DNA of 64,000 nucleotides, from the NCBI RefSeq assembly GCF_003666015.1, contig NZ_QPLT01000001.1:248001-312000 (forward strand). Direction: 5' to 3'. Below the pieces are notes generated by a model. It was given only the letters and a program-made list of their open reading frames with translations. It was not told the DNA's origin and ran no database searches. The position numbers and the translations under genes are program-made. This stretch comes from Halorubrum sp. Atlit-26R (GTDB taxonomy: Archaea; Halobacteriota; Halobacteria; Halobacteriales; Haloferacaceae). The stretch's first letter is position 1; every line of letters begins with the position of its first letter. This document shows, piece after piece, positions 10,826-62,227 of the stretch.

Positions 10826-11226
10826 TTTATAAATAACTGACTGTGAATCGATAGGCTACACCGCCAAAGCTCCAGCCGCTCGCTTATAAATCGCTGCTAC
10901 CAGATCGACAGACGACACCTCCAAAGCCCCAGTCGCGAGGCGGACGCACGCTCGCTGCGCGCCTCACTCGGTCGCTTGCGCTCCCTCGTTCGGTGCTTAC
11001 GTCGCCTGCGTCCGCCTCGCGACTGCCCCTTTGAGTCCCGCCCCGCTCCGCACAGCACCTCACGCCTCCCCAGCCTCGTCGCTCACGCCCTACGGGCGTT
11101 CGCGACTCCCTCGCGCGTGCTGGCTCGCGGCCGCCGAGGGCGGCCGCTCGCAGGCACGCGCCGACCGCACCGTTGTTTATAAGTAACAGACGGCACCCGC
11201 TCTCGGATATTTAAATATCGCATCGC
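10826..11226 (+). repeat. Intergenic structured repeat, copy A (forward)
   Basis: First full copy of the six-copy family. In order: TTTATAAAT (10826), a CCGCCAAAGCTCCAGCCG box (10861), a second TTATAAAT, a GATCGAC element, and a second box (10918, 57 bp after the first). Hairpin I has arms at about 10922-10947 and 11008-11035 and a conserved loop containing GGTGCTTACGTCG. Then come the linker CGCCTCCCCAGCCTCG, hairpin II (11078-11106, ACGCCC/GGGCGT) and hairpin III (11113-11161, outer stem GCGCGTGC/GCACGCGC, inner CGGCCGCC/GGCGGCCG). The terminal TTTATAAG is at 11176, and a distal ATTTAAATA-CATCGC tail is shared with copy B. It lies between convergent genes. Short open frames inside are not believed coding. 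Confidence 0.9.
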
Positions 11227-25316: not shown

Positions 25317-25441
25317 CCTCTGGGGCCATGAGAGCCGGAGGAATAACCCTTCTGCCGCCTGCGTCCCGTTCGATCCGCTCGTCTGTCACGACTCATAGCG
25401 GGAGTACGTGTAGTACGTCGCTCAGTGTGATGGCGTGGTTG
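25317..25441. other. Upstream spacer of the lipoprotein gene
   Basis: Non-coding stretch between the start of the lipoprotein gene and repeat copy B. It contains the presumed TATA element of the lipoprotein (about 25340-25347 on the minus strand). I saw no further gene, tRNA or strong hairpin. Confidence 0.4.
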
Positions 25442-25812
25442 TTTATAAACCGGATCGCGGTGTTGCTGTCGGCTATTTATAAGTGATCGACGCTGCCGCG
25501 GTGAACGCCTTCAAAGCCCCAGTCGCGAGGCGGGCGCACGCTCGCTGCGCTCCTCGTCACTCGCGTTGCTCGTTCCTGCGGTGCTTACGTCGCCTGCGCC
25601 CGCCTCGCGACTGCCCCTTTGAGTCCCGCCCCGCGCCGCACGGCACAGCACCTCACGCCTCCCCAGCCTCGCCGCTCGCTCCGCTCGCGGCGTCCCTCGC
25701 GGGCTGGCTCGCGGCCTCCGCTTCGCTCCGGCCGCTCGCAGGCGCGCCACCGCACCCCCTTTTATAAGCCCTCGTCGCCGCCGCTCACCGTCATTTAAAT
25801 ACGACATCGCGG
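25442..25812 (+). repeat. Intergenic structured repeat, copy B (forward)
   Basis: Full copy between divergent genes. TTTATAAA occurs at 25442 and TTTATAAG at 25476. A single box (CCTTCAAAGCCCCAGTCG) begins about 25 bp after the second TATA-like motif. Hairpin I is nearly perfect (GTCGCGAGGCGGGCGCA against its complement) with loop GGTGCTTACGTCG. Hairpin II is GCCGC/GCGGC, different from copy A. Hairpin III has inner stem GCGGCC/GGCCGC, while its outer stem is weaker than in other copies. The terminal TTTATAAG is at 25761. A distal ATTTAAATACGACATCGC tail matches copy A. Only one leader unit is present. Confidence 0.9.
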
Positions 25813-25954
25813 CCGGCGATCTGCGATACTCACTCCCGAAATCGGTCAAAGCGGCCTCCGTAGCGACCGACCGTTCCGACGGCGACCGCTCCCGAATCGG
25901 GTCGCCGCGGATCCGGGGAGAAGGTATTTGCGGCCGGCAGCCCGACTCGGGGGC

Positions 25955-28320: not shown

Positions 28321-28466
28321 CCCTCGCGCCTCCCCAGCCTCGCCGCTCGCTCCCACCGGTCGCTCGCGGCGTCCCTCGCGCGTGCGACTCGCGCCCTCCG
28401 GACGCTCGTCGGCACGCGCCGACGTGGGCGGTCGGTCTCGTCGCCGCTCGTTTTTTTTTTAAATAC
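28321..28466 (+). repeat. Intergenic structured repeat, copy C (3'-half only)
   Basis: A partial copy between convergent genes. It begins at the linker CGCCTCCCCAGCCTCG, then hairpin II (GCCGC/GCGGC) and the conserved GTCCCTCGCGCGTGC. A hairpin III outer stem of GCGCGTGC/GCACGCGC closes near 28420. The leader units, the CCAAAGCCCC boxes and hairpin I are absent. It ends at a T10 run and AAATACGG, where copies A and B have ATTTAAATA. The truncation shows that the family is modular. Confidence 0.75.
28451..28460 (+). terminator. T10 run, probable transcription terminator
   Basis: Ten consecutive T on the plus strand, downstream of L40e and preceded by the hairpins of repeat copy C. Archaeal RNA polymerase terminates at T-runs, so this is a likely stop for plus-strand transcripts facing the convergent MBL hydrolase gene. 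Confidence 0.55.
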
Positions 28467-36641: not shown

Positions 36642-37696
36642 CGGTCTCCCCCGTCAGCGGTGACGTCCTCTGACAGTCCGCCGTCCCCCCGACGCGTGTA
36701 CTCCTCGCCGGTGAGCCGCAGGTACACGTCCTCCAGCGACGGCTCCGACCACGAGAGCGAGTCGAAGGCGACGCCGGCGTCGTCGAGCGCGTCGACCGCG
36801 GCCCCGATCGCTTCGGGGCGGACGCCGCGCACCCGGAGCCCCTCGTCGGTCGCCTCGACGGTCGGATCGCTCCCGAGCCGCTCGCGGACTCCGGTCGCGA
36901 CCGCCTCGACCGTTTCCGCGGTCGTCGGCTCCGGGGTCGCGGCGTCGAGCCGCGGGGCCCCGCCGTGTTCCGCCACGAGTCGGTCGGGCGCCCCGCTCGC
37001 GACGACCCGCCCGTCGCGGAGCATGGCCACGCGGTCGGCGAGCCGCTCGACCTCGTCCATCGCGTGGCTCGTGAGGAAGACGGTCGTGCCGTCGGCCGCG
37101 AGCCGCTCGATCAGCCGGTGGATCGCCCGCCGACCGGCCGGATCGATCCCGGTCGTCGGCTCGTCGAGGAACAGCAGGTCGGGGTCGTTGACGACGGCGG
37201 TCGCGACGCAGGTCCGGCGCTTCTGACCGCCCGAGAGCGTCTCGTACCAGGCGTCCGCGTCGTCGGCCATCCCCACGTCGTCGAGGACGGACTCGGTGTC
37301 CCGGGCCGCGTCGTAGAGGCCGCCGTAGTAGTCGACCAGCTCGCGGGCCGTGAGCCGCGCGGGCGGGTCGAACGACTGCGGGAGCAGCCCGATCCGCGAG
37401 GGGTCGACGTCGCGGGGCTGTGCGCCGAAGACGCGCAGGTCGCCCTCGGCCTCGGTGGTCCCCGTCAGCGCGCGCACCAGCGTCGTCTTCCCGGCGCCGT
37501 TGGGGCCGATGAGCCCGAACACCTCGCCGGCCGCGACGTCGAGGTCGACCCCGTCGAGCGCGACGACGTCGCCGTACGCCTTCCGGACCCCCTCGCCGCC
37601 GACGACGGGGTCGCCTCCGACGCCGGCGTCGGGGACGCCAGAGACCGGGTCCTCTCCGGTCGCGTCGGCCGCGGCGCCGGTCGCTGTCTCGTCCAT
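36638..37696 (-). CDS. ABC transporter ATP-binding protein (ABC-2 partner)
   Basis: 352 aa. Walker [11 protein letters not shown] is at about 63-72, the signature is LSGGQKRR, Walker B is [13 protein letters not shown], and the switch region is FLTSHAMDE. The first 35 residues are an acidic Gly/Pro extension. The last 110 residues form the accessory domain typical of DrrA/CcmA-like exporters, ending in a Gly/Asp tail. It is first in a two-gene operon with the overlapping permease. TTTTCGGCCG, and beyond it the divergent folCP promoter, lie upstream. Confidence 0.93.
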
Positions 37697-37803
37697 GCGT
37701 TCGGATGCGGCCGCCGCGCGCGTAAGGGTTGCTTTTCGGCCGCCGAGACCGTCGCCCGTCCCGGTCCGTTACGCCTAAGCGACGCGCCGCCGACCCACGG
37801 CGT

Positions 37804-43835: not shown

Positions 43836-44229
43836 GTGGCGAACACCACCAAAGTCCCAGCCGTTCATTTATAAATAGCTGACAGTAGATCGACGGCGAA
43901 CGCCTCCAAAACCCCAGCCGCTCGGCGATACGTGGCTGCTGCCGGGGCGAACACCGCCAAAGCCCCAGCCGGGAGGGCGCCGGACGCTCGCTGCGCTCCT
44001 CAGTCGCTCACTCCGTTCGCTCCCTGCGGTGCTTACGTCGCCTTCGGCGCCCTCCCGGCTGCCCCTTTGAGTCCCTCCCGACCGCGACCGCACCGCCACC
44101 TCACGCCTCCCCAGCCTCGTCGGTGGTCCTCCGCTTCGCTCCGGACCACCGACTCCCTCGCGCGTGCTCCTCGCGGCCGCCTCCGGCGACCACTCGGAGG
44201 CACGCGCCACCGCGGTTCTATTTATAAAT
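43836..44229 (+). repeat. Intergenic structured repeat, copy D (forward)
   Basis: Full copy with three leader boxes at 43846, 43903 and 43954 (spacing 57 and 51 bp); TTTATAAA appears at 43868. The hairpin I stem is GCCGGGAGGGCGCCG paired with its complement at about 44045-44059, quite different in sequence from copies A, B and F yet fully complementary. The CCCC/GCCCC internal loop and the loop motif GGTGCTTACGTCG are kept. Hairpin II is GTCGGTGGTCC/GGACCACCGAC. Hairpin III has outer stem GCGCGTGC/GCACGCGC with a divergent inner part. TTCTATTTATAAAT closes it at 44217-44229. It lies between convergent genes. Confidence 0.92.
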
Positions 44230-44249
44230 GGTCGCTGTGACCGCCTGAT

Positions 44250-53626: not shown

Positions 53627-53978
53627 TTATAAATAGAACTGCGGTGGCGCGTGCCTGCGAGGCCGCCTCGCGGCCGAGCAGCACGCGCGAGGGAGTCGGC
53701 CGACCGCAGGGAGGCCGACGAGGCTGGGGAGGCGTGAGGCGCGGTTGCGGTGCTGTGCGGGGTGGGACTCAAAGGGGCAGCCGCGAGGACGAAGCCCGAC
53801 GACGTAAGCACCGCAGGGAGCGAACGGAGTGAGCAACCGAGGAGCGCAGCGAGTCGTGCGAGTCCTCGCGGCTGGGGCTTTGGAGGAGTTGTCTGCCGAT
53901 CTGTCAGCACTGATTCATAAGCGAGCGGCTGGGGCGTTGGAGGTGCACGTCACCGCTCCGCGGTCATTCACTTATAAA
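53627..53978 (-). repeat. Intergenic structured repeat, copy E (reverse)
   Basis: Full copy on the minus strand. The element 3' end is at the left: TTCTATTTATAAGC (53627-53640) preceded by hairpin III (GCGCGTGC/GCACGCGC). Hairpin II is GTCGGCC/GGCCGAC, a third sequence version. Hairpin I is AGCCGCGAGGAC/GTCCTCGCGGCT (shorter than the others). Two leader boxes follow, one CCAAAGCCCC and one CCAACGCCCC, with a degenerate TTATGAAT between them. The outer TTTATAA at 53972-53978 overlaps the stop codon of the next gene. Confidence 0.9.
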
Positions 53979-61810: not shown

Positions 61811-62227
61811 ATTTTTAAGCGGTGGCGCGTGCCTGCGAGCGGCCGCCCTCGGCGGCCGCGAGGAGCACGCGCGAGGGAGTCGGTGGTCCGGAGCGAAGCG
61901 GAGGACCACCGACGAGGCTGGGGAGGCACGAGGTGCTGTGCTGTCGCGGTCGGGTGGGATTCAAAGGGGCAGCCGCGAGGCGGGCGCAGACGACGCAAGC
62001 ACCGCAACGAGGGAGCGGTAGCGACCGAGTGAGGAGCGCAGCGAGTGTGCGCCCGCCTCGCGGCTGGGGCTTTGGGGGGTGTTGGTCGCCGATCCACGGT
62101 TGCCTATTTATAAATGAGTGGCTGGTGATCTGGCGGTGTTGGCCGTCGATCCACGTACGTCCATTTATAAGCGAACGGCTGAGGTTTGGCCGTGTTCATC
62201 GCCGAGGTGTAGTCGCTCATTTATAAG
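61811..62227 (-). repeat. Intergenic structured repeat, copy F (reverse)
   Basis: The longest copy, on the minus strand. Its element 3' end (ATTTTTAAGC at 61811) has the weakest TTTATAA. Hairpin III is GCGCGTGC/GCACGCGC with inner CGGCCGCC/GGCGGCCG; hairpin II is GTCGGTGGTCC/GGACCACCGAC as in copy D; hairpin I is AGCCGCGAGGCGGGCGCA and its complement. To the right, TTTATAA occurs at 62107, 62164 and 62220 (57 and 56 bp apart), giving the most leader units. The loop motif is GGTGCTTGCGTCG here. Confidence 0.92.

Follow-up and report, generated by a model that had tools for sequence, protein, structure and literature searches.

A covarying hairpin module in dispersed intergenic elements of Halorubrum and other Halobacteria: a probable core of miniature transposable elements

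The closest described systems are found in the repeat catalogue of Haloquadratum walsbyi, which includes MITEs, palindrome-associated IS605-related elements (PATEs) and the small mobile repeats SMR-A (PMC3119063). SMR-A repeats are ~110 bp long, have prominent inverted ends, occur in tens of copies and are found inside other mobile repeats (PMC3119063). Repeats in switched orientation at one site were also reported in that study (PMC3119063). Searches by sequence string and by topic recovered no published description of the element analyzed here, and this catalogue is the nearest that we found. Our starting point was a 64,000-nucleotide stretch of the genome of Halorubrum sp. Atlit-26R (the window; its genome is referred to as G000). 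A sequence-only reading of the window had reported a hairpin (hairpin I) at 43954-44066, with arms that differ between copies and remain complementary. The five arms that it quoted were located where it had placed them, and an exact reverse complement lies downstream of each (73-82 bp, start to start). The site itself is real, but it represents copy D alone, and just hairpin I of a larger element (~43841-44231).

We assign a probability of about 0.7 to the conclusion that hairpin I serves as the structured core of miniature, non-autonomous transposable elements that form one family across the class of haloarchaea. The module is dispersed, intergenic, high-copy and class-wide, and in several genomes outside Halorubrum it lies inside IS6 MITEs. 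Halorubrum copies have been gained, flipped and partly rebuilt over time; their stem sequence changes and complementarity stays.

The copy D element is ~390 bp long. From left to right, it comprises left units and hairpin I, followed beyond a linker by hairpins II and III, and it is bordered on the right by an AT-rich site (Table 1). Its left units follow the pattern GAACACC..CAAAGCCCCAGCCG, with an AT-rich TTTATAAATAG site in the first. The five hairpin I copies of the window have boxes CAAAGCCCCAG and CTGCCCCTTTGA in common and are 111-114 bp in length; Halorubrum hairpin I cores are mostly 105-121 bp. The left box CAAAGCCCCAG occurs nine times in the window at ≤1 mismatch (0.26 expected) and the right box CTGCCCCTTTG five times exactly. 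Six perfect inverted repeats of this class are present in the window, compared with a mean of 0.93 and a maximum of 3 in 40 order-1 Markov sequences. Hairpin I of copy D corresponds to covariance-model match G000:C1:291958-292070 (133.9 bits), and the fold of the whole element, relative to shuffles, has z = -5.35 on the plus strand and -5.59 on the minus strand. The Halorubrum long form is 405-491 bp, with ends CGGGAGTACGTG.. and ..ACTCCCG.

Table 1. Positions of element copies and their parts in the window.
Feature	Position	Strand	Details
Copy A arms	10932-10948/11007-11023	+	exact complements
Copy A hairpin I	10922..11034	+	intergenic, convergent genes; orthologous copies in G052, G066, G056, G017
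Copy B arms	25522-25538/25595-25611	+	exact complements
Copy B hairpin I	25512..25622	+	divergent genes
Copy B long form, 440 bp	25399..25838	+	inverted ends CGGGAGTACGTGTAGTACG .. GCGATACTCACTCCCG
Partial copy, hairpin II region only	28322..28420	+	same site in G052, G066, G056, G017
Copy D left units, two (57 + 51 bp)	43841..43948	+	each GAACRCC..CCAAARYCCCAGCCG; box matches at 43850, 43907
Copy D hairpin I	43958..44070	+	foot CAAAG / CTTTG, CCC/CCC internal loop, variable stem, structured loop
Copy D arms	43968-43982/44045-44059	+	exact complements
Copy D hairpin II	44119..44153	+	hypervariable stem, conserved CCTCCCCAGCCTC and TCCCTCGC on either side
Copy D hairpin III	44160..44207	+	GCGCGTGC .. 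GCACGCGC, variable inner hairpin, then CCACCGC
Copy D right AT-rich palindrome TTTATAAATGG	44221..44231	+	element border; motif scan; kept in D orthologs
Copy E arms	53872-53862/53790-53780	-	exact complements
Copy E hairpin I	53769..53882	-	site occupied in 6/6 species compared
Copy F arms	62064-62048/61988-61972	-	exact complements
Copy F hairpin I	61961..62074	-	further left units adjoin

Parts of the element also occur in other arrangements. Tandem left units of 57 bp with TTTATAAATAG sites, in variable copy number, stand beside different elements (43841-43948, 10856-10912 and 62084-62200), and the remnant consisting of hairpin II only (28322-28420) has been retained in place across five species. 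Elsewhere in the window, the minus strand at 52135-52187 matches the leuA-Halobacteria leader RNA (RF03001; 73.4 bits).

Covariation was evaluated in an alignment of 32 copies built from sequence only. Of its 1088 cells, 98.1% pair, compared with a shuffle mean of 87.3 and with 32-45 when the structure is slid by 1-3 columns. Two-sided changes were found in 20 of the 34 pairs, and cells changed on two sides outnumber those changed on one by 106 to 3. All shuffles scored lower on four of five covariation measures, and slid structures collapse. To obtain the phylogenetic null, the changes that parsimony assigns to each column were redistributed at random over the tree of the data themselves (200 times), a procedure that is R-scape-like but is not R-scape. 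Significant stem pairs (E < 0.05) number 4 of 17 in Halorubrum and 10 of 14 in other genera, with none among off-stem pairs. Thus, in the larger alignment the arms are complementary and covariation exceeds phylogenetic expectation both in Halorubrum and in other genera. The loop of hairpin I had been described as nearly invariant; in fact it varies and has covarying pairs of its own. Hairpin II ranges from 23 to 86 nt across copies and keeps its self-complementarity: 118 of 212 distinct segments fold, vs. 11 of 212 after shuffling.

Covariation, however strong, does not by itself prove an RNA, as recombining repeated DNA hairpins can mimic it and features of the strand-asymmetry type are needed to discriminate. 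Paired changes can also arise in DNA hairpins whose arms are corrected against each other or undergo gene conversion. The initial interpretation, that selection acts on folded RNA or on single-stranded DNA, is supported as regards paired stem changes beyond the null, and is otherwise one fitting reading among several, given mobile repeats, stem replacement and inversions of loops and whole elements. On these sequence data, an RNA function of the hairpin module is possible. Our verdict is that foldability is kept by selection, by arm-to-arm correction, or by both.

The genome of the window contains at least 55 copies by DNA search and at least 150 by covariance model, and three near-complete relatives have 71, 96 and 104 copies (the last in G016). 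The element is present in all of the first 23 congeners looked at (23/23). The hairpin covariance model matches 104 of 145 Halobacteria genomes, in 45 of 58 genera, and a search with a pattern for the version found outside Halorubrum returned 111 further stretches in named genera (e.g., Haloarcula, Natrinema, Halobaculum, Halonotius and Halobacterium). No match to the element was identified in phages and IMG/VR, and a viral origin is thus unsupported. Restriction to chromosomes was considered and rejected: it is nearly correct with regard to Halorubrum plasmids and false class-wide, as 20-31 plasmid records match. Within PLSDB (H1-H4 vs. H5-H44), the element is almost missing from Halorubrum plasmids, whereas the hairpin occurs on megaplasmids of other haloarchaeal genera.

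Among the 76 copies for which both neighbouring genes were called, 26 are located between convergent, 33 between tandem and 17 between divergent genes. All but one of these (75/76) stand at least 6 bp off called genes, and no gene was called inside Halorubrum copies. Such a distribution would be expected if insertion were intergenic and otherwise free of preference. Orientations relative to the neighbouring genes are distributed as +- (26), -- (17), -+ (17) and ++ (16). Given the lack of orientation bias and the spread of contexts, a role as terminator or leader element is excluded. A relationship to chromosome polarity was also discarded: of three genomes, only G008 had a strand bias, which was weak (p = 0.03) and was taken to be gene-orientation noise.

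Comparison of orthologous sites provides information about how the stems change. Six species have six different stems at site E, each of them complementary. At site D, hairpins of G000 and G017 are otherwise 96.5% identical and differ by a pair flip from C-G to G-C. Among 194 Halorubrum copies, 3 (L108; L269, 11839; L357, 10832) have intact arms around an inverted loop, and the whole copy B element of G000 has the opposite orientation to that in G052, G017 and G066 (L120, L121 and L123), with CGGGAGT/ACTCCCG at both borders. Copies A and D are nearest to the ortholog in one near relative, and copy E is nearer to paralogs (0.904) than to orthologs (0.83-0.89). From the stems of site E, the pair flip, the inversions and the paralog affinity of copy E, we infer that stem replacement is a DNA-level process in which conversion, inversion and correction operate alongside point compensation. 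Copy D adjoins the ilvA-like gene in roughly two thirds of 30 examined species loci. The persistence of sites D and E across much of the genus suggests either slow turnover or use by the host.

Outside Halorubrum, the hairpin is nested in 210-270 bp elements of Halonotius roseus (G070), a Halobacteriales MAG and G026. These elements have the terminal inverted repeat (TIR) GGTAGTGTTCAGATAA and 8-bp target duplications (GTGACGCC in L361, GTCCGGCC in L363 and GGGCGGGC in L366), and no transposase gene. One of the MITE-bearing genomes, that of Halonotius roseus, also contains an autonomous IS6 copy. This 699-bp element (L359) has the TIR seen in L361 and L362, its own duplication (CTAGTACC) and a 213-aa ORF identified as an IS6 transposase (NF033587, E = 7.5e-56), with 77-78% identity to annotated ISH15 and ISH29 transposases. 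Because the TIR and the 8-bp duplication are common to the IS6 element, we identify the 210-270 bp elements as IS6 MITEs built around a structured core. Further copies outside Halorubrum form head-to-head hairpin pairs with unrelated stems and a centre of 34-45 bp that is often palindromic.

Neither of these arrangements was found in Halorubrum, where copies have the same hairpin module plus two more hairpins and ends unlike those of the IS6 MITEs. The IS6 TIR is absent from the 64-kb window at ≤1 mismatch and rare in G000 (5 sites), and no 8-bp target duplication was seen for Halorubrum copies. One gain is apparent at window site 37696-37803, where an element is present in G052 only and five relatives are empty; its borders are untidy, with no clear target duplication. 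We looked for an autonomous element flanked by hairpins and identified no recurrent ORF between neighbouring hairpins. In related species, a smaller insert of ~50 bp was also noted within the hairpin element, at varying positions (L090, L092, L094, L097, L099, L103, L113, L342 (12139), L343 (7247), L351 (11235) and L353 (14187)). It is made up of one small hairpin of the form AGCG-stem-GGGCAGCCGGCGGC-loop-GCCGCCGGCGA and another of a second type, and its first stem is variable and self-complementary. Possibly, this mini-insert is a very short mobile repeat in its own right.

A folded single strand tolerates G.T (or G.U) mismatches but not A.C, and the two should be equally frequent if folding is not strand-specific. 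Outside Halorubrum, the first 12 pairs read on the plus strand include 5 G.T vs. 32 A.C mismatches; after copies were grouped by leader clustering, the counts are 5 vs. 25-29 (p ≤ 3e-4). Outside Halorubrum, this asymmetry favours single-strand folding of the minus strand (GGGACTGAAAGGGGC..GACGTAAGCACCGCA..GAGGAGCGCAGCGAG..GGGGCTTTC), which would be the one that must fold. The corresponding counts in Halorubrum (9 vs. 9-17) show a weak trend that is not significant. Wobble pairs in the hairpin amount to ~2%, compared with 7.4% in tRNAs of the same loci.

A mechanism can be proposed for a family of miniature transposable elements of this type. Transposases of the IS6 type would move the copies in trans in some genera, and a putative enzyme would do so in Halorubrum. 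On the strand that reads GGGACTSAAAGGGGC...GGGGCTTTS, the hairpin would have to be able to fold when single-stranded; it would most likely do so as DNA, when replication or transposition exposes it. Ectopic conversion, in which whole hairpins are replaced among dispersed copies, and arm-to-arm correction may supply pre-matched stems. Selection for folding would then act on these newly supplied matched stems, and selection and arm correction probably both contribute.

It is possible, though in our judgment improbable, that there is no selection on folding at all, and that template switching, cruciform repair or gene conversion homogenises the arms of copies that are neutral relics. The excess of two-sided over one-sided changes described above is in keeping with this, as are the wholesale replacement of hairpin II, the affinity of copy E to its paralogs, and the loop inversions and flips, which show recombination between arms. 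However, strand-asymmetric mismatches are unexpected from a process that treats both strands alike. Further, the joints, the CCC/CCC internal loop and the single-stranded segments are conserved across genera, and one fold survives class-wide.

We put forward with similar caution, as a speculative extension, the idea that the hairpin functions as a signal in single-stranded form (ssDNA or RNA) and is portable, having been acquired by unrelated miniature transposons, both IS6-type and others. Its fold would be selected on one strand and its stem sequence actively diversified, and it would constitute a structured parasite or host signal of a new kind, not the by-product of one particular transposase.

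A haloarchaeal family of structured non-coding RNAs, for which the minus strand is transcribed, the fold is selected and mobile elements are mere vehicles, appears unlikely. Several features fit such RNAs: covariation exceeds the phylogenetic null, G-U-compatible mismatches outside Halorubrum are concentrated on the minus strand, that strand has conserved single-stranded motifs rich in purines, and elements whose ends are unrelated contain one and the same module. However, no Rfam match was obtained at the gathering threshold or E ≤ 1, wobble pairs are scarce relative to the same-locus tRNAs, and some copies have an inverted loop. In head-to-head pairs the modules are on opposite strands, and the GC-rich 34-45 bp centre has no TATA-like site by inspection. 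By our reasoning, the right-hand TATA-like site of the Halorubrum element lies too near for a full-length minus-strand transcript.

That the element is REP/BIME-like and depends on a Y1 (RAYT/IS200) transposase for its movement is very improbable: hairpins do occur in head-to-head pairs outside Halorubrum (+- in 33 of 40 close neighbours), but they are ~100 nt long and in 17 of 76 copies stand between divergent genes, no RAYT gene flanked by hairpins and no Y1 link were found, the Y1 genes are mostly 121-150 aa and IS200-type (longest open frame 198 aa), none of 18 Y1 loci has a hairpin nearby, and Y1 genes are lacking in G016 (104 copies), G030 (45 copies) and G027. The absence of hairpins from the flanks of these 18 loci and of a Y1 gene from G016 also led us to reject a PATE/IS605 assignment.

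If the fold of hairpin I is selected, it constitutes a class-wide, unannotated structural signal at a hundred or more places per genome, and reshuffling fast enough to place six stems at one site amounts to a natural experiment on arm matching. The hairpin I covariance model can serve as an annotation marker for a large set of unannotated haloarchaeal intergenic repeats.

The module resembles structured non-coding RNAs of the type collected in Rfam in its covarying stems and conserved junctions, but it matches no family. As in bacterial REP/BIME, the hairpins are dispersed and intergenic and form inverted pairs (outside Halorubrum); they differ in being ~100 nt long, without a RAYT and without preference for gene 3' ends. 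PATEs are likewise haloarchaeal and non-coding, with palindromes and heterogeneous copies, but the elements described here have no Y1/IS605 association and their ends are inverted repeats. Compared by description rather than by sequence, SMR-A repeats are similar to the module in size (cores mostly 105-121 bp), inverted ends and nesting. SMR-A repeats (HqIRS42/43/55) insert into palindromes of other elements without target duplication; the module here also lies inside other elements, although no filled/empty pair was found for the hairpin alone. IS6-family MITEs (ISH15/ISH29 type) are non-coding elements of 210-270 bp that have the TIR and 8-bp duplication of an IS6 element of the same genome. 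Unlike these, the copies in the window and in Halorubrum are without those ends, are larger and have three hairpins, and the conserved hairpin core is also found in elements with unrelated ends.
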